Positions 1-18,704 of a DNA stretch of 39,457 nt are shown one piece after another. Within the stretch, counting starts at the first letter, position 1. Each line of letters opens with the position of its first letter. The notes beneath the pieces are model-generated. The model saw nothing but the letters and a program-made list of their open reading frames with translations. It did not search any database and was not told the origin of the DNA. Made by a program: the position numbers and the translations under genes. This DNA comes from Candidatus Nomurabacteria bacterium (GTDB lineage Bacteria > Patescibacteriota > Minisyncoccia > Phycocordibacterales > SBAW01). The stretch is from NCBI GenBank assembly GCA_943356415.1, contig CALREW010000002.1, positions 88,868-128,324 of the forward strand, given 5' to 3'.

Positions 1-952
1 ACCCCCGGGTTATTTTGGGGGCGCGGCCCCGTAATCCCCCTCCGCCTCTTATCCCCCCCAAACCCCCCCCCCCCCCCCGATTTGCCGCCTTCGCTCGGGC
101 GACGAAACGCTTTACCGTGCTCGCGCGCAAAAGCCGATGATGCGGAAATACCCGGAACCCCAAGAAATTCACCCCGCTCCCCACGGGCTCAATCTGCGCT
201 TTTCTTGGATGCACCGTAAGACAAAGTCGCGTCGCGAGAAAATCCGTTATCCGCAGTTTCAGCTCATGCAAATACGGCTTGTCATCGTGCAGTAGAACAA
301 AATCGTCCATATACCGCGCGTACCGGCGCACATGCAAACCGTGCTTCACGTATTGGTCGAGCTCGTCGAGGTAGACATTGGCGAACAGTTGCGAAGTGAG
401 GTTGCCGATGGGAATTCCTTTACCCCGTGTCTCCTCGCTGCTTTCAATGACGATACGGCACAGCGCGAGCATGCGCTCGTCGCGGATTCTCCGAGAAAGG
501 AACGAGAGGAGTATGCCATGGTCGATGGAGGCGAAGTATCTGGAAATGTCCATCATAAGCGCATAGCGCGATACGCGCGCAAATCGCTCGAAGCGCGCGA
601 TACCGGCGTGCGTCCCCTTGCGTCGCCGACAAGCATAGCTGTCAAATATGAAACGCCGCTCGAAAATAGGTTCGAGAGCGGCGACCATCGCCTGATGCAC
701 GATGCGGTCCCGGAACGGCGCGGCCTGTATCTCGCGGCGTTTGGAATCCGACACGATGAATTTCCGGTATGGCCCGTGCGTATATGTGCCGCCGAGAAGG
801 AGTTCTCGCAATTCCAGCAGGTTCTTTTCCAGATTCCACCCGAAGCGTGCCACCTCTTCGCGCCCGCCCTTGCCGCGGCGAGCGCGCCGGTATGCGCCGA
901 TCAAGTTTTTGAGCGAAAACGCCTTTTCAAATGTGTCCGTGTGTACATTCAT
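1..952 (-). CDS. DGR-type reverse transcriptase, partial (runs off left edge)
   Basis: Reading frame translated by hand from ATG at 952-950 (minus): MNVHTDTFEKAFSLKNLIGAYRRARRGKGG..., with IPIGNLTSQLFANVYLDELDQYVKHGL and YARYMDDFVLLHDD (YxDD catalytic motif) and GVNFLGFRVFPHHRLL. Open to base 1, so absent from the ORF track. Confidence 0.95.
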   Translation of the reverse strand, partial: MNVHTDTFEKAFSLKNLIGAYRRARRGKGGREEVARFGWNLEKNLLELRELLLGGTYTHGPYRKFIVSDSKRREIQAAPFRDRIVHQAMVAALEPIFERRFIFDSYACRRRKGTHAGIARFERFARVSRYALMMDISRYFASIDHGILLSFLSRRIRDERMLALCRIVIESSEETRGKGIPIGNLTSQLFANVYLDELDQYVKHGLHVRRYARYMDDFVLLHDDKPYLHELKLRITDFLATRLCLTVHPRKAQIEPVGSGVNFLGFRVFPHHRLLRASTVKRFVARAKAANRGGGGGLGGIRGGGGLRGRAPKITRG

Positions 953-1142
953 GTAGTGATGCGGGGCCCACTCGCTCCGCCGCGAGCAATCTCCTTGCGG
1001 AGATTGGCAAGAAGCGGAGGTAGAGGCCCGATATTTTCCCGCTCGGCATTTCCGCCCGCGAGAAGGAGCGCGTCCGTGTGCTTCTGCGGCTCTGACGAAA
1101 CTCCGTGGAGTTTTTGTTCCGGCCGCGATATGTGCGAAGCGT

Positions 1143-1260
1143 ACCGGGAGCAGCGGAAGCCGATGTTCGTGTTCGAATTCGACGGGGCATTGTTGAGATT
1201 CAGCGTGAACGCGCCATCAGTCGCGCCATTGCTCCAATTGCCGCCGCGGATGAAGCCCGC
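1143..1260 (-). repeat. DGR template repeat (TR)
   Basis: 118 nt aligns without gaps to 1747-1864; 17 of 20 substitutions fall on TR adenines (minus strand). Lies between the RT and avd. Confidence 0.95.
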
Positions 1261-1310
1261 CGCCGTTTGTATGAGACGCACCCCTTCCCTCATTCGGATT
1301 GTTCGCATAC

Positions 1311-1649
1311 CTACCGGGTGTTCGACCGCATCCACCCGCCTAATAATTTCCCTACCTCGTTCACCCGCTCGGCGGCGAAGCCGTACTGCCGCACGGAGAG
1401 AAATTCGAGGTCTTTGGAAAGGCGCAAGAGTATGCGTAGCGTATCCAAGTCCACGCTCGCGCTCTTGAGGAGCGGCAACTTGTCGCGCTCGGCGTTCGCG
1501 CGGATGATGCCGCGCAGGATATCGAGCGCCGTGTTTTCTATCTGCTGACCGAGCACAAAGCGCTGCGCTTTGGGAAATTTGCGCACCGCCGGATATAGCC
1601 AGAGGATGAGCTGGTACGTCTTTTCGAAGATGGTAAGTTGTTCGAGCAT
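1311..1649 (-). CDS. avd: DGR accessory variability determinant-like four-helix-bundle protein
   Basis: 112 aa alpha-helical protein (MLEQLTIFEKTYQLILWLYPAVRKFPKAQRFVLGQQIENTALDILRGI...) in the avd position between VR and TR. Confidence 0.85.
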   Translation of the reverse strand: MLEQLTIFEKTYQLILWLYPAVRKFPKAQRFVLGQQIENTALDILRGIIRANAERDKLPLLKSASVDLDTLRILLRLSKDLEFLSVRQYGFAAERVNEVGKLLGGWMRSNTR

Positions 1650-1744
1650 AGAGCGGTTTTTCTTTTCTTTTTTTCATACTGCTTGCTTTTTCAAATTTTT
1701 TCGAAACCAGATTTTCAGAATACAGATACCAGATTGCTACAGCA

Positions 1745-4700
1745 TCACCGGGAGCAGCGGAAGCCGGCGCCCGCGTCCGAACCCGACGGGGCACTGCTGA
1801 GATTCAGCGCGAACGCGCCAACCGGCGCGCCAGGGCCCCAATCGCCGCCGCGGCCGAAGCCCGCGATAGTAGCAAAGCCGCCCCGGTACCATTGGTCGTT
1901 CGTCGTGCGCGTATTGCCGCAGATGCCGTCGCCAGAGGTGGAGCACGCTTGCCACCCGGCGGTCGCGCTATTGACTATTGGATAATCGTTGACCACGACC
2001 TGGTCAACCCACTCCCAGACGTTGCCGCCGAAGTCCCAGATGTACCCGCCGTTGGAGAGCTTGTACGTGCGGCGCTGCGAGCTCCATGTGCTCGTATCGC
2101 ACGTCTGTCCCGTACCATTGCACGGGTCGGTGTCGACGGCAGTCGCGAGCGCAGAGGCAGGAGCGTTGTCGGAGTGGCCGTCGGACATTTGGTTGGTACC
2201 CGCAACGCCGCCGTTCCAGTTCCACCCGACATTCTCCGCGTTGTGCGCGATGGCTTGCCACTCTTTCTCGGTAATAAGGTGCTTGCCCGCGCGAATGCAT
2301 TCCGCCCGCGCGCTGGTCTGCGTGATGGAAACCCACGGAGAGCCGCCCTGCACCGACACTTCGTTGTCCGCGGAGGATTGCGCTTCGTACTTGTCGACGC
2401 AGAATCCTTGCTGTCCGTCCGCGGGAGAGGCGGGCACCGGAATCATGCCCGTGGGACAGGTGGCGGGGCCGAACCCGTCCGCGTAGATGGTGCCCGCAAC
2501 GACCGCGTTGCCGTTCCCGGTGAAAGAAGACGGATAGCCCTGCACGGGAGTCGTGGGACATGCCCCGCCGTCGCAGAGGTAGAGGTTGGCATCAAGCGCG
2601 CGGAGGTTCTTGCCGGTTGCAGAAAGTTGGAGATCGCCCGAGGCGTCTACATAAAACTCCGCGTAGCGCGTCGCGTCGTATGAGATGCGCTGTTGAGCGT
2701 TCGCGGCAGTGTTAAAGACGGTGAATGTGCGGCCGGGCGTCGTCGTGCCGATGAAGACCGAGCCGGTCGTGTAGTAGATATTGCTCCCCGAGGTCGTCCA
2801 CTGGCTCGATGAGCCGCCGACGCACGTGCCGTTCACCGCAAAACATCCTGCGCTAAGATTGAAGCCGTTCGCGGCGGTCGAAGTGGCCGCCGTTCCCGTG
2901 AGGTTGAGGTAGGTGGAGGCGAGCGCCCCGCTAAATGTGGAGGTGGAGTTGGTGCCCGCGACGTTGAGAAAACCTTGGATAGTAGAGGTGCCGGTCGTGT
3001 TGCCTTGGATGGTAGAGGTCGCCGTGCCGCCGACGTACAGCGTGTTGAATACTGACGCGAGGGTCGAGGAGGAGTTGGCGAAGGTCTGGAGGCCGGTCCA
3101 TGCATTTGCGTTGGCGAGATTGAGCGTGAGCGTTCTGTTGGCGGAGAGGTCACCGCCGCCGGAGAGTCCGGTGCCTGCGGTGATGGTCGTTACCGGAGCG
3201 ACGTAATCGGTACCGGCGGATGCGGCGGTGAATGCGCTCGTGCCGTTGCCTTTGACGAGACCGGTGAGTGACGTTGCTCCCGTGCCGCCGTTCCCCACGG
3301 GAAGAATGCCAGTCACATCGCTTGCGAGATTGATGAGCGCCGTGGTGACTGCACCCGCGACGGCCTTGAGAAAGCCCGTAACATTCGAGAATGTGAACGA
3401 GTTGGACGCGACGAGCGCGGATGTGGATGCGGTGCCGGTGACGGCGAGATTGGTGGAAGTCGCATTCGTCGTCGTGCCGTTTGTCGCGGTGAAATTGCCG
3501 AGTGTCGTTGCGCCTGTAACACTTGCCGTTCCTGCGACGGAGAGATTGCCTGCGGAATCGAATGTTGAAGTGGCAGTGCCGCCGAAATATGCTTTTGTGA
3601 ACACGGACAATTGCGTGCTCGACGCGCCCGCGGAGAAAAGTTGAAGCGCCGTCCATGTGTTCGCAACGGAAAGTGATGCGCCACCGCCGCCTGTCACGCA
3701 TGTACCATTCACTGCAAAACATCCTGCGCTAAGATTGAAGCCGTTCGCGGCGGTCGAAGTGGCCGCCGTTCCCGTGAGGTTGAGGTAGGTGGCTTGCACC
3801 CCGGCGGCGAATGTCGATGTCGCAGTTGTGCTCGTTGCGGCGAGATACGGAATCGTGAGCGCGCCGGAGAGCGTGCCGCCGGTGAGCGCGAGATAATTAC
3901 TTGCGGTTATTCCGTCGGGAATATCCGCGTCGGTAAGCCCCGACACTCCACTGACTGTGATACTCGATAGCTTTGTGCCGAAAAGATTATCGATTTTATT
4001 TGAGAGAGCTATCGCGTTGAACACACCGCCGCTCGCGTAGCTCGTCGCAGGGGCGGGATACGTCGTGCCGTAAATCGTCTTGCTGAATGTGTTTGAGAGC
4101 GCGTTGAGTTGGTTCGCAAGCTCCGCTTGCGTTACATATCCGCTACTCAGCGGGAGAGCGGTTTGCACCGTGCGCTCAATCACCGGCTGGGTGATGTAGT
4201 TGTTGACGACGGTTGCTTGCCCTGAGCTTGCCTGCGGTGAGCTTGTCGAACCCGTCGAAGTCGTCACGCTACTCGTCGCGCTTACAATCTGCGGGGATTG
4301 CGCTGGCTCAGCAAATGCGAGTGCCGCAGGCGCCGACTGCGCGGAATCCGCGTTTCTGGAGAATAGAACGGTATTACCCGGAATAGCGTTTGCTATCGAA
4401 AGCAGTGATGCCGCGAGCGTGTCGGCTACCCGCGACCACAGCGAGTGAAAATATTCCGAAGCCGAACTCGCGCCTTGCTCGGACGCTCCCGCACCGGCGG
4501 AAAAAGCGGCCGCGGCAGTTTGCTGTGTCTGACGGGCGACGTGTGATGGCGCTGTTTGGGTACCATCCAAAGTACCGCGTACAAGCGCCTGCGCGCCCTG
4601 CACAGAGGTCTGCGTGAACGCTTGAATGCCGTTCGGAACATCAAAATGCGCCGCGAGCGCTACGGACGCCGAGAGAAAAACGAGGCCGGTTGCGAGAGAG

Positions 4701-4855
4701 AGAGAGAGAGAGAGTACTCCGCGCTTCGCGCGGAGACGGGCAAACTGGTGCGCTTTTTGCAGGCGTGATGTCACGAAAAACTCCCGGTCGAGTTGGGTGT
4801 CCGACATGCCCCCACACCAATCTTCGTTTTGAAATTCTTGTTGATCTTCGTTCAT
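1745..4855 (-). CDS. DGR target: long repetitive surface protein with N-terminal membrane segment and C-terminal FGE-sulfatase/C-type-lectin-like domain ending in the VR
   Basis: ORF 1745..5233; probable start at MNEDQQEFQNEDW (4855). TM segment SLSLSLATGLVFLSASVALAA, Ser/Thr/Gly-rich stalk with LPVGNGGTGATSLTGLVKGNGTSAF-type repeats, C-terminal WEWVDQ...GGDWGPGAPVGAFALNLSSAPSGSDAGAGFRCSR. Confidence 0.9.
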   Translation of the reverse strand: MNEDQQEFQNEDWCGGMSDTQLDREFFVTSRLQKAHQFARLRAKRGVLSLSLSLATGLVFLSASVALAAHFDVPNGIQAFTQTSVQGAQALVRGTLDGTQTAPSHVARQTQQTAAAAFSAGAGASEQGASSASEYFHSLWSRVADTLAASLLSIANAIPGNTVLFSRNADSAQSAPAALAFAEPAQSPQIVSATSSVTTSTGSTSSPQASSGQATVVNNYITQPVIERTVQTALPLSSGYVTQAELANQLNALSNTFSKTIYGTTYPAPATSYASGGVFNAIALSNKIDNLFGTKLSSITVSGVSGLTDADIPDGITASNYLALTGGTLSGALTIPYLAATSTTATSTFAAGVQATYLNLTGTAATSTAANGFNLSAGCFAVNGTCVTGGGGASLSVANTWTALQLFSAGASSTQLSVFTKAYFGGTATSTFDSAGNLSVAGTASVTGATTLGNFTATNGTTTNATSTNLAVTGTASTSALVASNSFTFSNVTGFLKAVAGAVTTALINLASDVTGILPVGNGGTGATSLTGLVKGNGTSAFTAASAGTDYVAPVTTITAGTGLSGGGDLSANRTLTLNLANANAWTGLQTFANSSSTLASVFNTLYVGGTATSTIQGNTTGTSTIQGFLNVAGTNSTSTFSGALASTYLNLTGTAATSTAANGFNLSAGCFAVNGTCVGGSSSQWTTSGSNIYYTTGSVFIGTTTPGRTFTVFNTAANAQQRISYDATRYAEFYVDASGDLQLSATGKNLRALDANLYLCDGGACPTTPVQGYPSSFTGNGNAVVAGTIYADGFGPATCPTGMIPVPASPADGQQGFCVDKYEAQSSADNEVSVQGGSPWVSITQTSARAECIRAGKHLITEKEWQAIAHNAENVGWNWNGGVAGTNQMSDGHSDNAPASALATAVDTDPCNGTGQTCDTSTWSSQRRTYKLSNGGYIWDFGGNVWEWVDQVVVNDYPIVNSATAGWQACSTSGDGICGNTRTTNDQWYRGGFATIAGFGRGGDWGPGAPVGAFALNLSSAPSGSDAGAGFRCSR
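1747..1864 (-). repeat. DGR variable repeat (VR) at the 3' end of the target gene
   Basis: Ungapped alignment to TR 1143-1260; ends at the target stop codon. Confidence 0.95.
2838..2916 (-). repeat. Intragenic repeat copy 1 in DGR target stalk (79 nt)
   Basis: gcaaaacatcctgcgctaagattgaagccgttcgcggcggtcgaagtggccgccgttcccgtgaggttgaggtaggtgg matches 3714-3792 exactly; encodes LNLTGTAATSTAANGFNLSAGCF. Confidence 0.95.
3714..3792 (-). repeat. Intragenic repeat copy 2 in DGR target stalk (79 nt)
   Basis: Exact match to 2838-2916. Confidence 0.95.
4694..4714. repeat. Dinucleotide microsatellite (GA)10G in the 5' coding region of the DGR target
   Basis: Direct read: tgc-gagagagagagagagagagag-tactcc. 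Confidence 0.98.
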
Positions 4856-4899
4856 AGCAAAAAAATACCGATGTCCCACGATTGGTGTGGGGGCATGTC
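4803..4899. promoter_or_regulatory. 20-bp perfect inverted repeat bracketing the target start codon
   Basis: gacatgcccccacaccaatc (4803-4822) and gattggtgtgggggcatgtc (4880-4899), 57 nt loop containing the start codon at 4853-4855 (minus). Confidence 0.85.
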
Positions 4900-5266
4900 C
4901 ATATTGTCGCACAAAACCGTGGGGGGGTAGCGGCGAGTGTAAATCGGTGTGAATAGCGCGCCCCGCCGCCCATTCAATTTTCAAAAACCCCCGCGAAATG
5001 GATGAGGATGGAGGAGCGTGCGGCGGGACGGGGGTGAGAAAGCGCGGGGCGCTTTCGCAAGGCCGCAGGGCGACGGCCCGAGCCGGGACCGCGCAAAATC
5101 GCAACAGCGATTTATGCGTGGTGGGTCGCGGAATTCGCCAGCAGGCGAATATCCGTGACGAGGACGCGCGTACTCGCGCGTCCGAGTGAATCACCGCAGG
5201 GTCGAATCGTACAATCCGATACAAAGCCACCACGCGCGCGGAGCGCGCGAGTCAGTCGGAGTGCTG

Positions 5267-7085
5267 GCTAAAATAGGTTCTAGCGTGTTTTAATAGAGAC
5301 TCAAGAATCAAACTCAACGGTTTTTCAGAGGCCGAAATGCGCGCGGCGCAAAGCGCCGCGTAGGGGGGAATGGAATTTCCGCGTGCTTCGCGCGCGAGTA
5401 GGAGGTTCAGAAAATACCAAATCCGAAAACTCTTTGGAGGGGAAATGCAAATGCAGAAATCCATAAATACATAGTGGAGTGCTTACCCCGCCCACCCAGC
5501 GCGCACGAGATTGTCCATCCCTCGCCGTTTTTGGGGAACATTGTAAACGGCGGGGATGGCTCCCCAAAATGCAATGCGGTATGATATTTGAGATATGCGA
5601 TATTTTCTTTACGCAAGAAAATCTACCGATGTTGAGGACAAACAAGTTTTATCTATTGAGGCGCAACTTGCCGAACTTCGCGCGCTCGCGAAGCGCGACG
5701 GGCTAGAAATCGCCGAGGAGTTTGTCGAAAAGAAATCCGCGAAGATTCCTGGTCGCGCAATATTCAACGATATGATGTCGCGCATTGAGCGCGGCGAGGC
5801 GCAAGGAATAATTTGTTGGAAAATTGACCGCCTCGCCCGCAACCCCGTGGACGGTGGACAAGTACAGTGGCTTTTGCAACAGGGTGTCATTCGCCATATC
5901 CAAACACACGACCGCTCGCACTATCCGAACGACAATGTGCTGATGATGTCCGTTGAACTGGGAATGGCGAATGAGTATGTGCGCCAGCTGAGCGCGAATA
6001 CCGCGCGAGGGTTGCGGCAAAAAGCGCGGCAAGGAATATATCCAGGGCTTGCGCCATTCGGATATTTGAACGACTCGCGCACCAAAACTATCCGCGTCCA
6101 CAAAAAGAATGCCGCGCTTTTGCGCGAGATGTTTGAACGCTATGCGAGCGGAAGCGCGACGCTGGATGGTTTGGCGGATTTTCTTGAAAGCGCGGGCGTG
6201 ATGTCCAAGGGAAATCGTCGCGTTCACATCTCGCGCATTTCGTTCATTTTGCAAAATCCATTTTATTATGGCCATTTCCGCTACGCGGGCGAGTTGTACG
6301 ACGGCAATCATTCGCCGCTCATTTCAAAATCTTTGTACGACAAAGCAAACGTGGTTTTGCGTGGTCGTGGCCGGACGCTCGCTGTCAAAACCGAACCCGC
6401 GCCGCTGTGCGGCCTCCTGCGGTGCGGTTTTTGCGGCATGGCTATCACGGCCGAAGTGAAAGAGAAGCACCAAAAGAACGGCAATGTCCACCATTACACT
6501 TACTATCGCTGTACGCGCAAAAACAAAGCCGTGAAATGCAAAGAAGCGCCGATGCGAAGCGAATTATTGAATTCGCAACTCTCGGCGCTTCTTGGCGAGT
6601 ACGCCATGCCGCAAGAATGGGTATCGCTCTTGTCGGCGATGCTCGATAGAGAAGCAGCTAGCGCTTCCAAAACGGCGGCGGAGGCCGTTCAAGGACTGCG
6701 GGACAAAGTTTTTGACATTTCTAACAAATTGGAACGTCTTACAGACTTATACGTTGCCGAGGACTTGGAGCGCGAGGAGTATCTTTCGCGCCGTCGTGCG
6801 CTCATGAGCGAGCGCCGGACGATTGAGGAGCAAATCGTCCGTCTTGAACGCGCCCCCGCCGCGTGGGTTGAACCTGTCAGAAACTGGATACAAGACGCTT
6901 CGCGTCTTGGTGAAATGGCAAAATCGGAAGACATCCCCTCCAAAAAATCCCCCCTCCAAAAAGTTTTCGGATTGAACCTCAGAATCCACGCGCGCGAAGC
7001 GCGCGGAAACCCCATTCCCCCCTACGCGGCGCTTTGCGCCGCGCGCATTTCGGCCTCTGAAAAACCGTTGAGTTTGATTCTTGAG
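5267..7085. mobile_element. Serine-recombinase element A, inserted at the 3' end of tRNA-Thr(CGT)
   Basis: Recombinase gene flanked by a 74-nt perfect inverted repeat (5300-5373 / 7012-7085) plus degenerate continuation; right arm ends at the tRNA 3' terminus. Confidence 0.75.
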
Positions 7086-7145
7086 CCAGAGGCCGGAATC
7101 GAACCGGCGACCTCTCCCTTACGAAGGGAATGCTCTACCAACTGA
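5595..7145 (+). CDS. Large serine recombinase (resolvase domain, recombinase domain, zinc ribbon)
   Basis: MRYFLYARKSTDVEDKQVLSIEAQ...GIICWKIDRLARNP...VELGMANEYVRQLSANTARGLRQKAR...CGLLRCGFCGMAI; stop codon falls inside the antisense tRNA-Thr gene. Confidence 0.95.
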   Translation: MRYFLYARKSTDVEDKQVLSIEAQLAELRALAKRDGLEIAEEFVEKKSAKIPGRAIFNDMMSRIERGEAQGIICWKIDRLARNPVDGGQVQWLLQQGVIRHIQTHDRSHYPNDNVLMMSVELGMANEYVRQLSANTARGLRQKARQGIYPGLAPFGYLNDSRTKTIRVHKKNAALLREMFERYASGSATLDGLADFLESAGVMSKGNRRVHISRISFILQNPFYYGHFRYAGELYDGNHSPLISKSLYDKANVVLRGRGRTLAVKTEPAPLCGLLRCGFCGMAITAEVKEKHQKNGNVHHYTYYRCTRKNKAVKCKEAPMRSELLNSQLSALLGEYAMPQEWVSLLSAMLDREAASASKTAAEAVQGLRDKVFDISNKLERLTDLYVAEDLEREEYLSRRRALMSERRTIEEQIVRLERAPAAWVEPVRNWIQDASRLGEMAKSEDIPSKKSPLQKVFGLNLRIHAREARGNPIPPYAALCAARISASEKPLSLILEPEAGIEPATSPLRRECSTN

Positions 7146-7156
7146 GCTACTCTGGC
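7085..7156 (-). tRNA. tRNA-Thr (anticodon CGT)
   Basis: Minus: GCCAGAGTAGCTCAGTTGGTAGAGCATTCCCTTCGTAAGGGAGAGGTCGCCGGTTCGATTCCGGCCTCTGGC; full cloverleaf, loop TTCGTAA. Confidence 0.95.
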
Positions 7157-7244
7157 AATTTTCAAACACTGAGTCCCGACGTTTCAGTCGGGATCCCGAC
7201 CTTGCGTCGGGACTACTCTGGCGAACAATCGCTATCCTACGAAA

Positions 7245-7850
7245 TTAACCCCTCTTTTTCAATCGCCACAGCTCAAGAATCAGGACTGCTGCGAAAGCGC
7301 CAACCGTGTTTGAAACGAGATCGAGAGAAAGATTGTAGTAACCGCCCACCCATGTATTAGGTAGAAGAATCACTGCAGTAAATTCAATAAGTTCGTTTAC
7401 AACGGAAAGGCCCATCGACGCGAGTGCTGGAAGCATAATACGCCCAAACGTGCGCATGGTAGGCGCCATACGCGCAACTATCCCGTGTATCGCAGCCGCC
7501 GCAACACCAAAGCCGAACGCGTGTACCACTTGGTCGTACTTTAGGTACGTAAAATCACCATCAACATGAAACGGGTACAGTATCTGCGCATACAGCACGT
7601 GCCCATCGATACGCAATCCCCCACCGAGCATATGGAGTAACCCCCAGAGGGACAGTAGCCAGAGCATTCGGTCGCTCAACTGAGAGGTCCTCAAGGTTCC
7701 TACAATAACTCCAATGAAAACGAGCATCGTCGCTATATAGCCAATGAACTCGTAATTTCCATTGGATAAAAACCATACGCTAAACCCTACCAAGTAAAGG
7801 GTGGTAAAAACGGCAACGTACATCCGACCTCGGGTTAAAAGTGGTGTCAT
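7245..7850 (-). CDS. DUF2238/YjdF-like membrane protein
   Basis: 201 aa, multiple TM segments, motifs YDQVVHAFGFG and NELIEF. Confidence 0.75.
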   Translation of the reverse strand: MTPLLTRGRMYVAVFTTLYLVGFSVWFLSNGNYEFIGYIATMLVFIGVIVGTLRTSQLSDRMLWLLSLWGLLHMLGGGLRIDGHVLYAQILYPFHVDGDFTYLKYDQVVHAFGFGVAAAAIHGIVARMAPTMRTFGRIMLPALASMGLSVVNELIEFTAVILLPNTWVGGYYNLSLDLVSNTVGAFAAVLILELWRLKKRG

Positions 7851-7862
7851 ACTTTTTTTCTT

Positions 7863-8238
7863 GAGTCCCTCTTAAACGAGGCTAGAACCTATTTTAGCAA
7901 AAATGTCTCAGCAAATCTAATCTCACGCGCCGAGCGATTCGTAGTTTGAAATGTAATCGTACGCTACACGACGAACTCCGTCACGCCGTAGCGTCCACTC
8001 CACCAGACTGTCGGGTACGACAGTCTGCTTCCGTTCCCGCTCCGTCGCTCCGCCCTCGCCACCACAGAGTGTATTGTTTGGTGGTGTTGGCGAGGGCGGG
8101 TTTCTCCAAAGGAGAAACTGACGGAGTTCTAGTACCAATTCGGTGGACTCGGTTTTGCGAAACTATTTTCTGGGAAAAGGATTCGCAAAAACCGAGACTG
8201 ATGTTTTTGAAATTCGGTGGGAATTGGGTGGGGTTCCA
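7863..8238 (+). repeat. Long inverted repeat, left copy
   Basis: Aligned by eye to the reverse complement of 16253-16629; few substitutions outside one hairpin block. Confidence 0.93.
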
Positions 8239-8779
8239 AAATACAAATACAACAAATTTTATATTGTCTCGGTTATTTCTCTGCTAGTGTTTGTCCAAGT
8301 CTAAAGGAGATGCACCCTCGGCATCCGCCTCGGGTATTTCCGCTAGGGCTACGAGCGCCTAGATTACTTGGTGTCCTGCATATCCTCGCATTCCGCGCTT
8401 GCGAGCGCGTGCTCGGGCAGGACTCTTTTTGGGGAGAGGAAAGAATCCTCTCCCCAGCTCCGCCTCGGTTCGTGCTCCGCTTCGCTACGCATTCCGCAGA
8501 GCGGAACAGGGCTCACCCCACCCGGCTACGCCAACCCCTCTCCTTGTTTTCATTATTGCGTTCAGTGTGTCGCTTTCGCTACTAGGCTATGAGACTTCGT
8601 TTAACGTCGGCGCTCGTCCTTTAGCCCTGGACGCCCTAGCGGAAATACCCGAGGCTCAAATGCAAATGCGCTTGACCCACCCTCCCGTTCGCGCGCAAAC
8701 CCGCTCGCAGAGGAGGAGAGGGGTGCGAGCGGGGCTCCCTAGAGTTCAGAATTATACAAAAAGTGATATACTGAAATAT

Positions 8780-9667
8780 ATGTGGCAAAAACTTTCTAAC
8801 ATATTTAAATCTTCCTATGCTGCAATTTCAATCATTACCATGATCGTTGTTTGGTCTGCCATTTCCTATTTTGCAATATCATATAGTTCAAAATTCTTTT
8901 CCAACATAACAAGTGAGAGTCTATCTGATGTCTCTGATACTAATGCGTCATCTGATGCCGAAGATTGCAATGTTCAAGGTATAAATATACATGGAGATAT
9001 TGTTACATATAATTCTCACGACGCTTTTAATGATCAAGGTCAATTAAAATATGACCAAACTTCTGCTGATGAAGTTACTTGGTACATAAAAGAAGCAGGA
9101 GAAAAAGAAAATATCAAAGCGATTGCAATAGAAATTGATTCAAGTGGTGGTTCTGGCGAAGCGGGCGAAGAAATTATGCAAGCTCTAAAACAATCCGGAA
9201 AACCAACAGTGGCATTTATCCGCAATAGAGGACTATCAGCAGGATATTTATTAGCCACAGGTGCTCAAACTATTTTTGCCTCAAAGTTTTCTGATGTTGG
9301 AAGTATAGGTGTTACTCAATCTTATTTACAGAATACAGATAAAAACAAAAAAGACGGATACACCTACATAGATTTAAGTTCTGGTAAATACAAAGATACA
9401 GGAAGCCCAGATCGAGCCATTACTGAAGATGAAAAGCAAATGATTATGAGAGATATAAAAATCGGTTTAGATTATTTTATACAAATAGTCGCAAAAAATC
9501 GTAATTTAGATATTGAGAAAGTCAAAAAATTAGCCGATGGTTCTACTGTCATGGGAGAAACTGCTCTAAAAGATGGTTTGATAGACAAAATCGGATTACT
9601 TCCTGATGTGGAAAATTTCCTTACTGAAAAGATGGGTACCGAAGCAAAAATTTGTTGGCAGAATTAA
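8780..9667 (+). CDS. SppA-like (S49 family) membrane-anchored peptidase
   Basis: Start MWQKLSNIFKSS at 8780; N-terminal TM; IKAIAIEIDSSGGSGEAGEEI...PTVAFIRNRGLSAGYLLATGAQTIFASKFSDVGSIGV matches the S49 fold pattern. Confidence 0.88.
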   Translation: MWQKLSNIFKSSYAAISIITMIVVWSAISYFAISYSSKFFSNITSESLSDVSDTNASSDAEDCNVQGINIHGDIVTYNSHDAFNDQGQLKYDQTSADEVTWYIKEAGEKENIKAIAIEIDSSGGSGEAGEEIMQALKQSGKPTVAFIRNRGLSAGYLLATGAQTIFASKFSDVGSIGVTQSYLQNTDKNKKDGYTYIDLSSGKYKDTGSPDRAITEDEKQMIMRDIKIGLDYFIQIVAKNRNLDIEKVKKLADGSTVMGETALKDGLIDKIGLLPDVENFLTEKMGTEAKICWQN

Positions 9668-9684: not shown

Positions 9685-12600
9685 CTACTTAGAAAATTTA
9701 CCACCAGAAATATCAAAGAATCTCTCAAAGAAACTCGCGAGCTTGTTCAATACACTTTCTCGTTTTTGGGTTCTTTCACCAGTTGGAGAAAAACGAGATA
9801 CAGGAGGTAATACTTTTGAAATTGCTGTGCCAGTTGTGGCAATACCACCATCCCTAAAAGCATTCTTTATAAACACATAAGTAGCGTCACGATCAAGACT
9901 TTCGGTAGTGATAATCTTTTCTAATTCTTCAATTTTCTTTTCCTCAACAAATTTCTGCCAATCTTCATCCACTACCGCGTGAACATCGAGAGAGGTAATA
10001 AATTGGTTGATAAGGTCTTTTTTATTTCGTAGCTCGACACTGGAATCAATCGCCTTGTTGATATCGAGCAAGAGTTCACGATTTTTTATATGATCTTCGT
10101 GATATTTTTTAATCAAGCCCAAAACATAGTCAATATTTATCTCTATTTGCTTAATAAGCTCCATTTCAAATACCACATCATCGTTGATGTTTTCCTTTTC
10201 TTCTTCTACCCCCTTGCGAAATTCGTTGTACAAATCAATGTACATACTGTGATAATCCTGCACATCTCGTTCGGTCAAAATCTCATTCCCAGCAAACTCA
10301 TCGAAGGTTACAAGTATATTTCGGACACGCAGAACCGCTCCGTATAACCTGATAAAATCTTTTTGATTCTGCTCTCCCATAATTCTTTCACCCACAGGGA
10401 ACTTTTCTAACAATTCCTTTACCAAACTTTCATACCCTCGCACTTCCTTATCGCCGTCTTTGTAGCCATGATAATAATCATCGTATGCCTTCAAAAGCAC
10501 TATTCCACTCGCTTCTTTATCGCCAAAGAGCGCGATAGATTCATTTGTTGCTTTTTCTAGGTTACGAAAGCAGATAATGTTTCCAAAAGTCTTCACACTA
10601 TTCAAAATACGATTCGTTCTTGAATATGCTTGGAGTAGTCCGTGTAAGCGTAAATTCTTATCAACCCAAAGCGTGTTGAGCGTCGTGGCATCAAATCCGG
10701 TTAGAAACATATTCACCACGATTAAAATATCAATCTCACGATTCTTTACACGCTCACTGACATCCTTGTAGTAATTCTGAAACTTATCAGACGAAGTATC
10801 ATACGAAGTCCCAAACATCGCGTTGTAATCCTTGATAGCACTATCCAAAAAGTCTCGTGAACTTACATCAAGCCCGCTTGTGTCCTCTGAATTTTCGTCA
10901 ATCATTCCGTCTGCATCCTCGTCATTTACTCCAAAACTATAAATCGTTGCCACCTTGAATCGTTTGTCGCTTGGCTCACCTTCAAGTTGTTTTTTAAATT
11001 CAGCATAATACTTTTTAGCCACATCAATAGATGAAACTGCAAAAATAGAATTGAAACCAGCCATTCTGCGGTCTTTGATTTTATAGAAACTATTACGCTT
11101 TGTTTTCTGGTCAAAATGTTCACGAATATATCGCACAATATTTTCCAAACGCTCTGGCGCAGAAAGCACCGCCTCTCGGTCAATATCGCTAACTTTTTTA
11201 TCCTCAATATTTTCTGCCTCACGAACAGTAGAAACATAATCAACCTTAAACGGCAGAACATTTTTATCAGCAATGGCGTCTACGATAGTGTAGGTGTGCA
11301 ATTTTTCACCAAATGCCTGCTCGGTTGTTTTCAAATCTGGGCGACCGCCAGAAGAAGCATTGATTGCAAAAATAGGTGTGCCAGTAAATCCAAAAATATG
11401 GTAATTTTTAAAAGCTTTGGTAATCGCCGCGTGCATATCACCAAATTGCGAACGATGACATTCGTCAAAAATCAAAATAATATGTCCATCAAAAATAGTG
11501 TGCCCAGAGTTGCGACCAATAAACCTGTCTAATTTTTGAATAGTGGTAATGATGATACGAGTACTCGGATTCTCAAGTTGTTTTTTAAGCACTGCGGTCG
11601 AGGTATTACTATTCGCTGCGCCTTTTTCAAACTTGTCGTACTCCTTCATCGTCTGATAGTCCAAATCCTTGCGATCAACCACAAATAAAACTTTATCTAC
11701 ATACGGCAATTTACTGACGAGCTGTGCCGTTTTGAAACTGGTCAAAGTCTTCCCCGACCCTGTGGTGTGCCAGATATATCCACCCGCCTCTGATGTGCCG
11801 AGCTTTTTGTAGTTGGTACTGACTTCTGTTCTACTTAAAATACGCTCCGTTGCCACAATCTGATATGGTCGCATCACGAGGAGTAAATGCTCAGTAGTGA
11901 ATACACAATACTTAGTCAAAATATTTAAAAGAGCATGTTTAGCAAAAAAAGTTTTTGCAAAATCCATCAAATCAGTAATAGGGCGATTGGTCGCATCTGC
12001 CCACCAGCTCGTGAATTCAAAACTGTTGCTCGTTCGTTTGCCTTTCTTTACTCCACCCTCATTTGATTCCTTAATATGCTGGGCACGAGTAGTATTGCTG
12101 TAGTATTTGGTATGCGTACCGTTTGAAATAACAAACAACTGCACATACTCAAAAAGCCCACTTGATGCCCAAAAGCTTTCTCGTTGATAGCGATTGATTT
12201 GATTAAACGCTTCTTGAATAGCCACACCACGACGCTTGAGCTCAATATGCACGAGTGGTAAGCCATTTACCAAAACCGTCACATCATAGCGATTGGAACG
12301 CTTACCGTCTTCGGTTGCATACTGATTTATCACCTGCAAACTATTGTCGTGAATGTTGTCTTTCTTTATAAGATAAACATTTTTTATAGAACCGTCATCA
12401 CGAGTTAGATTCTTAACATGATCTTCTTGAATAGTTGCTGTCTTTTCCTCAATGCTCTGATTTGGATTGGCAATTTCGTTTGCAAAAAACTTTTCCCATT
12501 CAGTATCGGTAAACTCGAAGCCATTTAGTTTTTCCAGTTGCTTACGCAAATTCTGTGTCAAATCTGCTTCGGAAGTAATGGACACATATTCATACGCCTG

Positions 12601-12744
12601 CGTACCGAGTTGCTCTATAAAGGCACGCTCAAGCTCCGCCTCGCTCTGATAGTGAGCAACACGCTTGCCGTCGGGGATGTATTCCGCAACAACAGTGCTT
12701 TGCGGACTTTCCGCAACTAAATTGTATTTGTTGTTAGTGGACAT
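9685..12744 (-). CDS. hsdR: Type I restriction endonuclease subunit R
   Basis: VHIELKRRGVAIQEAFNQINRYQR (nuclease), GYIWHTTGSGKTLTSFK (Walker A), LIFDECHRSQFG (DECH), FGFTGTPIF. Confidence 0.97.
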   Translation of the reverse strand: MSTNNKYNLVAESPQSTVVAEYIPDGKRVAHYQSEAELERAFIEQLGTQAYEYVSITSEADLTQNLRKQLEKLNGFEFTDTEWEKFFANEIANPNQSIEEKTATIQEDHVKNLTRDDGSIKNVYLIKKDNIHDNSLQVINQYATEDGKRSNRYDVTVLVNGLPLVHIELKRRGVAIQEAFNQINRYQRESFWASSGLFEYVQLFVISNGTHTKYYSNTTRAQHIKESNEGGVKKGKRTSNSFEFTSWWADATNRPITDLMDFAKTFFAKHALLNILTKYCVFTTEHLLLVMRPYQIVATERILSRTEVSTNYKKLGTSEAGGYIWHTTGSGKTLTSFKTAQLVSKLPYVDKVLFVVDRKDLDYQTMKEYDKFEKGAANSNTSTAVLKKQLENPSTRIIITTIQKLDRFIGRNSGHTIFDGHIILIFDECHRSQFGDMHAAITKAFKNYHIFGFTGTPIFAINASSGGRPDLKTTEQAFGEKLHTYTIVDAIADKNVLPFKVDYVSTVREAENIEDKKVSDIDREAVLSAPERLENIVRYIREHFDQKTKRNSFYKIKDRRMAGFNSIFAVSSIDVAKKYYAEFKKQLEGEPSDKRFKVATIYSFGVNDEDADGMIDENSEDTSGLDVSSRDFLDSAIKDYNAMFGTSYDTSSDKFQNYYKDVSERVKNREIDILIVVNMFLTGFDATTLNTLWVDKNLRLHGLLQAYSRTNRILNSVKTFGNIICFRNLEKATNESIALFGDKEASGIVLLKAYDDYYHGYKDGDKEVRGYESLVKELLEKFPVGERIMGEQNQKDFIRLYGAVLRVRNILVTFDEFAGNEILTERDVQDYHSMYIDLYNEFRKGVEEEKENINDDVVFEMELIKQIEINIDYVLGLIKKYHEDHIKNRELLLDINKAIDSSVELRNKKDLINQFITSLDVHAVVDEDWQKFVEEKKIEELEKIITTESLDRDATYVFIKNAFRDGGIATTGTAISKVLPPVSRFSPTGERTQKRESVLNKLASFFERFFDISGGKFSK

Positions 12745-13909
12745 ATTCGTTGAAAGTTAAAACCTTGCCCCGATAGTATTCGTATTGAGACCGACGGGCT
12801 TTGAGTTCGGCAGGTAAACCGATTGAAATGTCGTTCGTAAGCACCTCGAATCTATCTAAAATTGAAATTACTCGTTCTTGTTCTTCGAGAGAAGCTATTG
12901 GGATTTTTATCTTTTTGAAATTATCATTGTAAAGTCTTTGGATTGTTCCGCCTTCTGTCTGCCATTTAACAGTCGCATAAAAATGATATAAAAATCTGTT
13001 TAATACTTTGCCCTCATCATGTTCAAGCCAAATAATATTGGAATCTTGAAAATATGCGGGTTCGCCGTTGTAGACAACTCGTCGCCCGATAGTACCAGAA
13101 GCAGATAAAAGTACGTCGCCTTTCTTTGGAAAAGAAAACTTATTGCGATACTCGTTAAAAACCTTTTCAGATATAAACGCATCTGGTTTCTTGCCAAAAG
13201 TCCCAATTTTGTAAAATGGGATTTCTCCAGTCGCAGTTGTTTCATTTTTGAATATTCTTTTACACATAGATACTTTTCCAATTTCACTAATCGGAATCCA
13301 CCGTACCCCCCCCTCTGGGAAGGTTAGGAGTTGTGTTCGATAATGTTCATACTGTTTCTTTCTCGCTTCTAGCTCCGCTTCTAGCTCCGCTTCTAGCTCC
13401 GCTTCTAGCTCCGTAAAACTATTAAGAATTTTGACAATTTCCTCCTGCACCGCAAGTGGCGGGAGAGGGATTTTGAAATCTTGCAGGGTCGATAACACGA
13501 TATAAGTCATCGCCGCACTATTTGTTTTTGTTGCAAGATATTTTTTTAGATTGTCGTTAAGTGCAAAATATAAAAATCGCACATCAATATCTTTACTGAA
13601 GTTTGTTAATACATAGGTTCGCTGATATGCCTCAAACTTACCGATGTAATGCTTTACTTCGCCAACATTCGCATTCCCCGCAATTAGTAATGCTTCTGTG
13701 TCCCAGCGATATTTATCAATTCTGCTAATTTCTTTTGCAGTAGTGAAAAACATATACTCGCCACCATCAACCGCAGCGTTTGCATTGAGTTTACCTGTCT
13801 CAATTTTACAAACCTTACCCAACTCCTTAAACTCCACCCCATTCGGGCAAAGCTTTGCGATTAACTGTTCAATTTTGCTTTGGTTCTTTGTCATATTATT
13901 TTCCTTCAA
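12734..13909 (-). CDS. hsdS: Type I restriction specificity subunit S
   Basis: Two TRD-like halves with conserved regions (PLPPLAVQEEIVKILNSF; ...EEQERVISILDRF) and a central ELEA tandem repeat. Confidence 0.95.
   Translation of the reverse strand: MKENNMTKNQSKIEQLIAKLCPNGVEFKELGKVCKIETGKLNANAAVDGGEYMFFTTAKEISRIDKYRWDTEALLIAGNANVGEVKHYIGKFEAYQRTYVLTNFSKDIDVRFLYFALNDNLKKYLATKTNSAAMTYIVLSTLQDFKIPLPPLAVQEEIVKILNSFTELEAELEAELEAELEARKKQYEHYRTQLLTFPEGGVRWIPISEIGKVSMCKRIFKNETTATGEIPFYKIGTFGKKPDAFISEKVFNEYRNKFSFPKKGDVLLSASGTIGRRVVYNGEPAYFQDSNIIWLEHDEGKVLNRFLYHFYATVKWQTEGGTIQRLYNDNFKKIKIPIASLEEQERVISILDRFEVLTNDISIGLPAELKARRSQYEYYRGKVLTFNEYVH
13365..13412. repeat. Four perfect 12-nt tandem repeats (gcttctagctcc) in the hsdS central spacer
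   Basis: Direct read; encodes ELEAELEAELEAELEA. Confidence 0.97.
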
Positions 13910-15479
13910 TATCCGCCACGATTTTATCTATCGCAGTGCGAAGTTCATTTTGTCGCGCGACAATACGAGCAATCTCGGTATTGAGCTCGGTAATATCGAC
14001 GACCTCACGAGTATCTTTTGCTATAACATAGCTTGAAACAGTAATATTATAGTCGTTCTCGGCAATATCTTTGTTGTTTACAATTTTTGCAAAATGCTCT
14101 ATATCTTTGCGAGAAATAAAAGCATCGAGAATTTTCTTGCGATTCACTTCACTCAATTTATTTTTATTACCACCGCGCACAAATTCGGCGGAAGCATCAA
14201 TGAATAGAGTCTTGTTATCTTTCTTGCTCTTTTTGAGAATTACAATACAGGTAGCGATTGTTGTACCAAAGAACAAATCAGGTGGGAGTTGAATTACTGC
14301 ATCAACATAATTGTTTTCTATAAGATATTTACGGATTTTCTGCTCGGCTCCGCCTCGATAGAGAACACCCGGGAATTCAACAATCGCCGCCGTGCCACTG
14401 GTAGAAAGCCATGAGAGCATATGGAGGGTAAATGCGAGGTCAGCCTTGCTCTTTGGAGCAAGCACTCCGGCAGGAGAAAAACGAGGATCATTGATAAGAA
14501 GAGGGTTAGCATCGCCCTCCCAATTGATTGAATACGGTGGATTGGAAACAATGGCATCAAATGGCTCATCGTCCCAATGTTTCGGGTCGGTTAGGGTGTC
14601 ACCGTGGGCAATATCAAAATTGTTGTAGTTGATATCATGGAGGAACATATTGATACGACAGAGGTTGTAGGTCGTGATGTTTATTTCTTGACCAAAGAAT
14701 CCTTGCCGAACATTTTCCTTGCCGAGCACTTTGGCAAATTTAAGAAGAAGCGAACCAGAGCCACAGGCAGGGTCATACACTTTATTCACTTCCTTTTTAC
14801 CGACGGTAGTTATTTCTGCAAGAAGTTCACTGACTTCCTGTGGCGTAAAAAATTCACCTCCAGATTTACCAGCGTTAGAAGCATACATGGTCATCAAAAA
14901 TTCGTATGCATCACCGAAAGCGTCTATGGTGTTATCGCCATAGTCACCAAGACGGAGGTCGCCAATAGCTTCGAGAAGTTTTACAAGCTTTTTATTTCTG
15001 TTCTCTACATTAGAGCCGAGCTTGTTTGAGTTCACATCCAAGTCGTCAAACAATCCCTTCAGGTCGTCTTCACTGCTTGCTCCTTTTGCTGAATTTTCAA
15101 TATTAGTAAAAACATTCGCTAGTGTTTCGTTTAGATTTGCATCATTACGTGCGTTTTTACGAACATTTACAAAAAGTGCGCTTGGTAATATATAAAATCC
15201 TTTTTCTTTTACGGTATCAGCTCGCCCAAATTCTGCTTCTTTGTTTGATAGGGTCGCATAGTCAAAATCTTTCTTCCCAGAACGACGCTCGTCGGCATTG
15301 ATATAGTTTGTAAGGTTTTCACTGATGAATCTATAAAACAAAATTCCAAGAACATACTGCTTAAAATCCCAACCATCAACACTCCCACGCAAGTCTGTAG
15401 CGATTTGCCAAATAGCACGATGAAGTTCTGTGCGCTCTTGCTCCTTGCTGTTATTTTGATTTGCTTTGTCTTTGCTCAT
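13896..15479 (-). CDS. hsdM: Type I restriction methyltransferase subunit M
   Basis: KVYDPACGSGSLLLKF and DAIVSNPPYSINW methyltransferase motifs. Confidence 0.97.
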   Translation of the reverse strand: MSKDKANQNNSKEQERTELHRAIWQIATDLRGSVDGWDFKQYVLGILFYRFISENLTNYINADERRSGKKDFDYATLSNKEAEFGRADTVKEKGFYILPSALFVNVRKNARNDANLNETLANVFTNIENSAKGASSEDDLKGLFDDLDVNSNKLGSNVENRNKKLVKLLEAIGDLRLGDYGDNTIDAFGDAYEFLMTMYASNAGKSGGEFFTPQEVSELLAEITTVGKKEVNKVYDPACGSGSLLLKFAKVLGKENVRQGFFGQEINITTYNLCRINMFLHDINYNNFDIAHGDTLTDPKHWDDEPFDAIVSNPPYSINWEGDANPLLINDPRFSPAGVLAPKSKADLAFTLHMLSWLSTSGTAAIVEFPGVLYRGGAEQKIRKYLIENNYVDAVIQLPPDLFFGTTIATCIVILKKSKKDNKTLFIDASAEFVRGGNKNKLSEVNRKKILDAFISRKDIEHFAKIVNNKDIAENDYNITVSSYVIAKDTREVVDITELNTEIARIVARQNELRTAIDKIVADIEGK

Positions 15480-15483
15480 AAAA

Positions 15484-16149
15484 TTATTTTCCTCTTTCTA
15501 TATCAGCTTGTTGTTGCATCCATGCATCCCCAGCCGCCTCAATTTCTTTATCTGTTGGTTCTCCCTCGTCCATTCTTCTGCGTCTATCATCTAAAATCTC
15601 GTCTTCAAACTCAAAATATAGGGTTCCTTGTGGGCGTCTCGAATACCCCAATAATTCCATAGCGAAACTAGACAAGCTATTTACTTTACCGTTAATTTTA
15701 ATTTTGTCATTTTCTACTACTTCAGCAATAACATTGGAATCTCGTGTAAAAGTAAGTTTTGATCCGACAGGAATTCTGTACTGTGCAAAATGGAATCGTG
15801 AGCGTCTTTCTTTAACCTCATCAACTTCTTTTTCCTGTTCGGGAGTTAATCCACTATCAATTTTTGTTTCTCCAATTTCTACTCGTTTCAATGCAAGCGC
15901 AGCATATTCTGGATTCATCTTAAAAAATTCTCGGCTATCCCGTGCTCGACGATCAGCAAAAATTGAATGGAGCCATTTTTCCTCTTTTTCAGCATTTTCT
16001 ACAGTCGCAGCGTAGTAAACCTCAAACGGAAGCGGTACGCCCGTTCGGTCTAACTGTTTGAGTCTTTCTTTAACATCACCGTGAGTAAAGCCGATTTTTA
16101 CATATTCCGGCATCGATTCATTTTTTAAAATGTAGACAATTTGATTCAT
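15484..16149 (-). CDS. GIY-YIG / T5orf172-domain-like protein associated with the R-M operon
   Basis: MNQIVYILKNESMPEYVKIGFTHGDVKERLKQLDRTGVPLPFEVYYAATVENAEKEEKWLHSIFADRR. Confidence 0.8.
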   Translation of the reverse strand: MNQIVYILKNESMPEYVKIGFTHGDVKERLKQLDRTGVPLPFEVYYAATVENAEKEEKWLHSIFADRRARDSREFFKMNPEYAALALKRVEIGETKIDSGLTPEQEKEVDEVKERRSRFHFAQYRIPVGSKLTFTRDSNVIAEVVENDKIKINGKVNSLSSFAMELLGYSRRPQGTLYFEFEDEILDDRRRRMDEGEPTDKEIEAAGDAWMQQQADIERGK

Positions 16150-16252: not shown

Positions 16253-16629
16253 TGGAACCCCCCACCCAATTCCCACCGAATTTCAAAAACATCAGTCTCG
16301 GTTTTTGCGAATCCTTTTCCCAGAAAACAGTTTCGCAAAACCGAGTCCACCGAATTGGCACTAGAACTCCGTCAGTTTCTCCTTTGGAGAAACCCGCCCT
16401 CGCCACTACACCAAACAATACATTGTGTGGTGGTGAGGGCGGAGCGACGGAGCGGTAACGGAAGCTAACACCAGTATTCTGGTGTTCGGTGGAGTGGACG
16501 CTACGGCGTGACGGAGTTCGTCGTGTAGCGTACGATTACATTTCAAACTACGAATCGCTCGGCGCGTGAGATTAGATTTGCTGAGACATTTTTGCTAAAA
16601 TAGGTTCTAGCCTCGTTTAAGAGGGACTC
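16253..16629 (-). repeat. Long inverted repeat, right copy
   Basis: Reverse complement near-identical to 7863-8238. Confidence 0.93.
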
Positions 16630-16874
16630 CAGAATTAAACCGAGCGATTTTTTGGCGGGATTTTGGCGGGCAGAGCGGAGCTCTGCCCAAGGATTTAAGC
16701 CATTTCCGACCGCTTCGCGGTTTTTTAGGGGAGGTTCAAAAATTCAAAAGCCCAAGATTTTTGGAGGGAAGATTTTTTGTGGGGAGGTCGTGCAAAATAT
16801 ATAACACTTGCCCCACCCACCCGTGCGCGTGTTAAATTTTGCCGATTTGAAAATCGGCAAACTCCCTTTAATAT

Positions 16875-17139: not shown

Positions 17140-18693
17140 ATGCAAAAATACTTTTTATACGCTCGCAAAAGCACCGATGTGGAGGACAAACAAATCCTTT
17201 CTATTGAAGGGCAACTTGCTGAATTGCGAGACCTCGCCAAACGAGAAAGTATCTACATTGCCGATGAGTTTATTGAAAAACGATCAGCAAAAATTCCCGG
17301 TCGTCCAGTTTTTAACAATATGCTTTCTCGTATTCAAAATGGCGAAGCGCAAGGAATTGTTTGCTGGAAAATTGACCGCTTGTCTCGCAACCCCGTTGAT
17401 AGTGGAAAAATCCAATGGATGCTCCAACAAAACATAATCCAACATATTCAAACTCACGGACAAAGTCATTATCCAAATGACAACGTGTTAATGATGTCCG
17501 TGGAATTAGGAATGGCGAACGAATATGTTCGCCAACTAAGTGAAAATACCGCACGAGGTTTGCGACAAAAAGCGCGCAACGGAGACTTTCCCGGCAAAGC
17601 TCCGCTTGGATATATAAATAATTCCAATATCAAGAAAATTGCTGTCCATAAGAAAAATTCAAAGATTGTAAAACAAATGTTTGAACTTTACGCGACAGGA
17701 AATGTGCGACTGGAAGACCTCGCAAAAATTTTAGAAAAATCAGACATACTTTCCAAAAATAATCGTAGAGTCCATGTTTCGCGAGTATCACATATTATCA
17801 ATAATCCAATTTATTACGGACACTTTCGCCACGCTGGAGAAATATATGAAGGCAAACATGAGCCGATTATTTCCAAAGAAATTTTCGATAAAGCAAATAA
17901 TGTTTTGCGAGGCAGGGGTCGCACGCCCGACAAGAAAACAGACCCACGACCATTTTGCGGACTTATGTCCTGTGGTTCGTGCGGTATGGGGATTACAGGA
18001 GAGATAAAAATCAAACGACAAAAGAATGGCACAAAACATTTGTACACTTATTATCATTGTTCCAAAAAATCCAAAGTGCAAAAATGTTTTGAGCCGTGCA
18101 TACGAGGCGAGGAATTGGATCGCCAACTTTCGGCAAAAATGAGCGAATATAGTATGCCGAAAGAATGGGCGACAAAATTATTTGAAATGTTAGATGTTGA
18201 GGAACAGAGAAATAAACACACCGCGTCGGTGGTAGTTTTAGATTTGCGAGAAGAAGAACAAAACATTTCAAAAAACCTCGCCAGACTTACAGATGTGTAT
18301 GTAGCGCAGGATATTGAGCGTGAGGACTATTTAAAAAGGCGTCGCTCGCTTATGTCCGACAAAAAGTCTGTCGAGGAAAAAATGGGGCATCTTTTAAGAA
18401 CCCCATCCGCGTGGATCGAACCGACACGCGAATGGATAAAAGACGCTTTAACACTGGATGAAATCGCGAAAACGAACGACCTCCCCTCCAAAAAAATCTC
18501 CCTCCAAAAAATCTTCGGCTCGAACCTCACCCTAAAAAACCGCGAAGCGGTCGGAAATGGCTTAAATCCTTGGGCAGAGCTCCGCTCTGCCCGCCAAAAT
18601 CCCGCCAAAAAATCGCTCGGTTTAATTCTGGAGCCGTTGCCCGGAATCGAACCGGGGACCTACTCCTTACCATGGAGTTGCTCTACCAGCTGA
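17140..18693 (+). CDS. Large serine recombinase (paralogue of 5595..7145)
   Basis: MQKYFLYARKSTDVEDKQILSIEGQLAELRDLAKRES...; same architecture; stop codon inside the antisense tRNA-Thr gene. Confidence 0.95.
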   Translation: MQKYFLYARKSTDVEDKQILSIEGQLAELRDLAKRESIYIADEFIEKRSAKIPGRPVFNNMLSRIQNGEAQGIVCWKIDRLSRNPVDSGKIQWMLQQNIIQHIQTHGQSHYPNDNVLMMSVELGMANEYVRQLSENTARGLRQKARNGDFPGKAPLGYINNSNIKKIAVHKKNSKIVKQMFELYATGNVRLEDLAKILEKSDILSKNNRRVHVSRVSHIINNPIYYGHFRHAGEIYEGKHEPIISKEIFDKANNVLRGRGRTPDKKTDPRPFCGLMSCGSCGMGITGEIKIKRQKNGTKHLYTYYHCSKKSKVQKCFEPCIRGEELDRQLSAKMSEYSMPKEWATKLFEMLDVEEQRNKHTASVVVLDLREEEQNISKNLARLTDVYVAQDIEREDYLKRRRSLMSDKKSVEEKMGHLLRTPSAWIEPTREWIKDALTLDEIAKTNDLPSKKISLQKIFGSNLTLKNREAVGNGLNPWAELRSARQNPAKKSLGLILEPLPGIEPGTYSLPWSCSTS

Positions 18694-18704
18694 GCTACAA
18701 CGGC
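18633..18704 (-). tRNA. tRNA-Thr (anticodon GGT)
   Basis: Minus: GCCGTTGTAGCTCAGCTGGTAGAGCAACTCCATGGTAAGGAGTAGGTCCCCGGTTCGATTCCGGGCAACGGC. Confidence 0.95.

Follow-up and report, generated by a model that had tools for sequence, protein, structure and literature searches.

A DGR that is very probably cargo of a serine-recombinase island integrated at a tRNA-Thr gene in a Patescibacteria genome

The diversity-generating retroelement (DGR) at the left end of a 39,457-nucleotide stretch of a Candidatus Nomurabacteria genome (the window; contig C2 of genome G000) is very probably the cargo of a 10.1-kb island that was integrated at the 3' end of a tRNA gene by a large serine recombinase, a reading of sequence features and comparisons to which we give a probability of about 0.88. 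The island (G000:C2:85835-95952) lies between tRNA-Thr(CGT) and prfB, and the recombinase encoded to the right of the DGR forms one unit with it, a context overlooked in the first-pass annotation. A second island of the same layout lies further right, and the features of both are collected in Table 1.

Table 1. Features of the DGR island and of the neighbouring island 2, in window coordinates
Feature	Position	Strand	Remarks
DGR reverse transcriptase (RT)	1..952	-	cut at the window edge by a scaffold gap; C-terminus left of the gap, contig C2
Template repeat (TR)	1143..1260	-	gapless alignment to VR
Avd accessory protein	1311..1649	-	NF033474, phrog_3206
Variable repeat (VR)	1747..1864	-	last base coincides with base 1 of the target stop codon
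DGR target	1745..4855	-	hydrophobic segment at the N-terminus, stalk rich in repeats, C-terminal domain with VR and weak FGE-sulfatase similarity
20-bp perfect inverted repeat, 4803-4822/4880-4899	4803..4899	-	encloses the target start codon
344-bp perfect inverted repeat B, right copy	4959..5302	+	left copy G000:C2:85835-86178, beyond the window
Half-site M, outer end of B	5267..5302	+	extended -10-like GCTAAAAT, T-arm-like motif GGTTCTAGC, core CTC
Left arm A of recombinase	5300..5442	+	joins M to give an internal M-core-A (attP-like) site
Large serine recombinase	5595..7145	+	Resolvase, Recombinase, Zn ribbon; 3' end antisense to tRNA
Right arm A	6951..7085	-	inverted copy of 5300-5442, abuts tRNA 3' end
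tRNA-Thr(CGT), insertion target of DGR island	7083..7156	-	
Left B repeat, island 2	7863..8164	-	
Island 2 cargo: HsdR, HsdS, HsdM (type I R-M) and T5orf172 protein	9685..16149	-	
Right B repeat, island 2	16327..16630	+	M half-site 16594-16630
Large serine recombinase, island 2	17143..18690	+	arms A 16627-16791 and 18476-18633
tRNA-Thr(GGT), insertion target of island 2	18629..18704	-	

The system in the window is a DGR with the gene order target-avd-TR-RT, which is that of BPP-1, and it is a further member of a class already known in Patescibacteria. The annotated cassette is real, and its RT, Avd and target can each be recognised. On the minus-strand frame from 952 to 1, the RT carries the DGR-type motif IGNLTSQ (of the [LIV]GxxxSQ type) and YMDD, matches Pfam RVT_1 at 58 bits and phrog_1423 at 372 bits, and has its best solved relative in 8ub7 (185.8 bits, 1.2e-53), the RT of the BPP-1 DGR, the next being a group II intron RT (84.2 bits, 1.1e-22). 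Avd scores 117.4 bits against NF033474, for which the cut-off is 80, and also matches phrog_3206. At its C-terminus, where DGR targets hold the VR in a C-type-lectin-like ligand-binding domain, the target matches phrog_9572 and shows FGE-sulfatase similarity that is weak and below the cut-off, together with weak matches to sulfatase-modifying factors; its predicted structure is a poor model (pLDDT 33). The start of the target is more likely the ATG at 4855 than 5233, because positions 4959-5302 form one arm of an inverted repeat. A stable RNA hairpin (z -4.8) is predicted from the 20-bp inverted repeat around this start codon and possibly has a regulatory role. No second VR was found anywhere in the genome.

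A scaffold gap of 10 N in contig C2, directly left of window base 1, interrupts the RT. Extending the contig to the left, as had been proposed, recovered the missing C-terminus: it is supplied by the frame left of the gap (LSEDSLRSWLSWASAANSRGLL..., running to a stop codon), and the translation beyond the gap (LSEDSLRSWLSWASAANSRGLLASLARRLGDPRIAAQPSK, followed by a stop) can be aligned with other DGR RTs at their C-termini. Apart from a few unread codons, the RT is therefore probably complete. The poly-C at window 1-80 encodes a Gly run that relatives do not have, and the first 80 or so positions of the window probably represent contig-end noise; its reading as a phase-variable homopolymer was dropped, given that it adjoins the scaffold gap and that its residues are missing from relatives.

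The annotated coordinates of RT, TR and VR and the hand counts of their differences proved correct. TR and VR align over 118 nt without gaps and differ at 20 positions, comprising 17 of the 23 TR adenines (13 A>G, 3 A>C, and 1 A>T) and three other positions, every one at T; the probability of finding at least 17 of 20 differences at adenines by chance is 6.9e-13. In 16 TR/VR pairs of the same family, 257 of 266 changes are at adenines as against 17 of 20 here, and for this reason the VR of the window may be older, or have been fixed for longer, than those of its relatives. With a non-adenine share of 3/20, compared with 9/266 in the family (Fisher P 0.043), the description of the system as "active or recently active" is not established.

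In a tree of 64 rows, the window RT is far from the outgroup RTs and nested among those that have TR/VR, where it groups with the DGRs of Patescibacteria, pairing with L033 of UBA6201 (100/99) beside the DGRs of its own family (99/94); it lies inside the DGR clade, and its annotation as a DGR RT stands. L033, the nearest relative, still has the target, but its TR is gone, together with most of avd and RT residues 1-76. Where a TR adenine occupies the first or second position of a codon, the orthologous targets of the two genomes differ at 13 of 15 codons, as against 5 of the 24 others (P 7.6e-5); the genus of the window genome consists of this one genome. At the decayed L033 locus (4183-7697), the first 20 Avd codons adjoin RT residue 77, and the downstream secreted protein and the target are kept.

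The limits of the island are set by two pairs of inverted repeats. Read along the minus strand, the order is tRNA-Thr(CGT), core CTC, arm A, antisense recombinase, arm A', core, repeat B', cargo, repeat B, core CTC, and prfB, with a cargo of target, avd, TR, RT, a secreted protein, a membrane protein, and an HTH protein. Repeat B is present in exactly two copies in the genome, 100% identical and bracketing the DGR block. Its right copy stops where arm A of the recombinase starts, the other arm A stops at the 3' end of tRNA-Thr(CGT), the left copy of B ends three bases ahead of the prfB start codon, and the core CTC is common to all three junctions. In 13 other genomes of the family, tRNA-Thr(CGT) stands directly before the prfB start, which is the empty site. 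Because the junctions of repeats and arms share the core and the site is empty in these 13 relatives, the 10.1 kb with the DGR are read as an insertion at the tRNA 3' end. The recombinase has three domains over cut-off (PF00239, PF07508, and PF13408), matches phrog_95, and shows DNA-invertase similarity. In the outer half-site M, GTTC lies 23 nt from the core, resembling a tRNA T-arm. Repeat B folds better than its shuffles (z -4.5 to -5.0) and matched no known RNA in an Rfam search.

A few details of this locus deserve mention. The end of the recombinase ORF at window 7083-7145 is the tRNA in antisense (EAGIEPATSPLRREC...), that is, it is supplied by the insertion target. The HTH gene beside the left 344-bp repeat (L002 6831-7400 and L197 6928-7263) is conserved together with the repeat in G001, there without the DGR, suggesting modular exchange of cargo. 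An IS-like transposon with arms A as its terminal repeats was also considered and rejected, given that the DGR-flanking B repeats share their terminal core with the arms and that the empty site extends over the whole block.

The layout is not confined to this locus. The recombinase is matched at nine places in the genome, with copies at different tRNAs; the arms A are inverted repeats of 75-180 bp with 71-100% identity, and the cargo is bounded by B repeats of 242-344 bp in the five islands of the genome that could be followed. Island 2 (window 7863-18704) carries a complete type I restriction-modification system, and its T5orf172 protein corresponds to PADLOC PDC-S57, while the cargo of further islands includes an EcoRI-type methylase with a GmrSD-HNH protein, OLD-like ATPases, a D-Ala-D-Ala ligase, and others. 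Among contigs C1, C2, C3, C6, and C7, several ends lie within or beside recombinase copies, and the matches at the ends of C1 and C6 appear to be two halves of one copy. Because several contig ends fall at such places, the repeats of the recombinase islands explain much of the fragmentation of this assembly.

Across the family, the 3' end of a tRNA faces the recombinase end in 21 of 30 loci, the misses being mostly contig ends or shorter, divergent recombinases. A sample of 21 loci from the order gave a facing tRNA in 15, arms A in 13, and cargo-flanking B repeats in 7, and some divergent recombinases are without tRNA or arms. Of 21 half-sites preceding the core, 20 have GTTC 20-24 nt away from it (chance 4.4% each), and on the tRNA side the T-arm GTTC is mostly 17-19 nt from the core, so that the recombinase site seems to imitate the tRNA. 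The orientation of the recombinase is always toward the tRNA. Recombinase matches at E <= 1e-60 are present in 61 of the order's 158 genomes. Many contigs break off 100-450 bp upstream of the recombinase, as expected if the island repeats disrupt assemblies. One locus, L267 (G025:C26:1-4500), shows tRNA sequence at each arm, a tRNA-Met at one and a truncated tRNA end at the other, an arrangement that looks as if a second attP had been used.

A second island with a DGR as cargo was found in another family (L319, G047:C7:117500-134000), at tRNA-Thr(GGT). This DGR has Avd, an RT 41% identical to that of the window, and an Lcl_C target, in a gene order unlike that of the window DGR, and all 19 of its 19 TR/VR changes are at adenines. 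At its other end, the island is followed by tRNA-Thr(CGT)-prfB-ftsE and pyrG, and thus occupies the same chromosomal locus as the island of the window. DGR cargo was seen in these two islands; most recombinase loci are without a DGR and most DGRs of the order lie elsewhere, and because they are so rare as cargo, DGRs are not a preferred one. Among other DGR loci in viral and genome collections, only five distant matches to the recombinase were found alongside, none of them close. Since it falls about 5 kb beyond the B repeats of a recombinase island, the DGR of G071 (L329, G071:C16:97000-114500; TR/VR changes 14/14 at adenines) was not counted as cargo.

Several other readings of the window have to be weighed. 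A resident chromosomal DGR might simply stand beside an unrelated recombinase insertion, the repeats being ordinary intergenic ones. Other DGR loci of the family do lack such a recombinase in the flanks examined, and neither a tRNA nor comparable repeats occur close to the L033 relative. However, the interval missing from 13 relatives takes in the entire DGR block, the outer repeat ends exactly at the shared core, and the layout is found again with a second DGR and with different cargo, which together make a resident DGR very improbable. A DGR borne by a prophage is less credible still: many relatives of the RT occur in viral contigs and the integrase matches phrog_95, but no virion genes were recognised among the island proteins (two small ones have no Pfam match), the RT groups with DGRs of Patescibacteria, and no relative of the recombinase was found in IMG/VR.

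More can be said for a segment that inverts, in which the recombinase or homologous recombination would flip the DGR block between the 344-bp repeats and switch the target on and off, as a form of phase variation. The block is surrounded by perfect inverted repeats with M-type half-sites at both ends, the recombinase resembles DNA invertases, and assemblies are broken at the repeats, as would result from mixed orientations. Repeat length alone accounts for such breaks, however; the target and about 100 bp upstream of it lie wholly within the block, so a flip need not remove its promoter, and the tRNA-abutting arms and the empty sites require integration. We therefore consider this reading unlikely as an account of the locus, although inversion and integration could coexist. 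Of a different kind is the proposal that the DGR is frozen, a remnant in which homing has ceased, which is compatible with its being island cargo. Its non-adenine changes (3/20) exceed the family rate, its nearest relative has a deleted TR, avd, and RT N-terminus, and its own RT is interrupted by the gap and the Gly run; yet Avd, TR, and VR are intact, as is every readable RT motif, and the interruption falls together with a scaffold gap and a homopolymer, as is typical of assembly noise. We regard a frozen state as possible and lean against it.

For the preferred reading, integration at the tRNA, a mechanism can be proposed by analogy with serine integrases. The recombinase would have joined an attP, made up of half-site M, core, and arm A, to an attB formed by the T-arm and acceptor end of the tRNA and the prfB side, which would leave attL (tRNA-core-A) and attR (M-core-prfB); both junctions match the observed layout. 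M would act as a mimic of the T-arm, with GTTC at 20-24 nt from the core compared with mostly 17-19 nt in the tRNA, and its outward-facing, promoter-like extended -10 may restore transcription of the host gene severed from the tRNA promoter. A second, inverted copy of M-core-A sits between the recombinase and the cargo, and hence an excised circle would hold two inverted attP sites. In many islands, the two members of either repeat pair are nearly identical, which suggests that they are frequently homogenised. Equal use of the two inverted attP copies would be expected to give either orientation of the recombinase, against which stands the constant tRNA-facing one. Within the DGR, RT and Avd would copy the TR RNA with adenine errors, and the copy would replace VR, so that a surface fibre would vary in an exposed domain. 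Such modules would be moved between cells of the order by the island, through excision and transfer that are both inferred. No excised circle or free form was found in IMG/VR, nor any relative of the recombinase in its viral contigs, and plasmids and phages among the matches listed are below 30% identity; no directionality factor or transfer gene was identified.

Mobile islands with DGRs have a precedent on a Legionella genomic island. Like BPP-1-type DGRs, the DGR of the window has an RT, Avd, adenine-specific TR/VR divergence, a VR at the C-terminus of the target, and the same gene order; unlike them, it is cargo of a tRNA-integrated serine-recombinase island, and it has more non-adenine changes than its relatives. 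SCC elements use the recombinases CcrA/CcrB, insert as a cassette at the rlmH 3' end, and have terminal repeats and variable cargo that includes restriction-modification. The islands share with them a large serine recombinase, end repeats, a variable cargo including restriction-modification, and a conserved gene whose 3' end is the insertion site. However, the best NCBIfam similarity of the recombinase, to CcrB, reaches 96 bits against a cut-off of 900, the insertion is at the tRNA-Thr and not the rlmH 3' end, and SCC is not known to have the T-arm mimic, the arms around the recombinase, or the inverted internal attP-like site. With tRNA islands and ICEs that use tyrosine integrases, the islands have in common the insertion at a tRNA 3' end, variable cargo, and an integrase beside the tRNA; they differ in their serine recombinase, a core of about 3-5 nt, the lack of a long displaced tRNA fragment, and paired inverted repeats. 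Yeast 2-micron-type plasmids are circles with inverted recombination sites and a tyrosine recombinase. An excised island would resemble them in being a circle with two inverted recombination sites that separate two unique regions, and it departs from them in its serine recombinase, its chromosomal integration at a tRNA, and the fact that no free form was seen.

DGRs of Patescibacteria (CPR), in clade 2, have been treated as cellular-encoded, and DGRs have been suggested to have begun on mobile elements (Roux et al. 2021, PMC8144416). The DGR of the window resembles those of clade 2 in its Patescibacteria host, its non-viral context, and a target without clear conserved function, and differs in lying on a delimited island of mobile type.

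The loci may represent an order-wide class of Patescibacteria islands that has gone undescribed, in which a large serine recombinase targets tRNAs, a T-arm-mimicking attP is kept in two inverted, homogenised copies, each excised circle has two attP sites, and DGRs, restriction systems, and other modules are carried between genomes. Whether so broad a class is real we consider an even bet; no description of one was found in the literature searched, the coverage of which is partial. Such a class, with a defined target, att-like sites, and cargo ends, would help to locate accessory genes in small genomes broken by repeats, and its recombinase could possibly be used for DNA insertion at tRNA genes in uncultured bacteria. 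DGRs regarded as cellular abound in Patescibacteria, and the present locus bears on how they moved between lineages. Given that delimited islands of one kind, at one tRNA-Thr/prfB locus, carry different DGRs in two families, such a vehicle becomes testable, and if the island class is true, it would be a concrete means for the spread of supposedly cellular DGRs.
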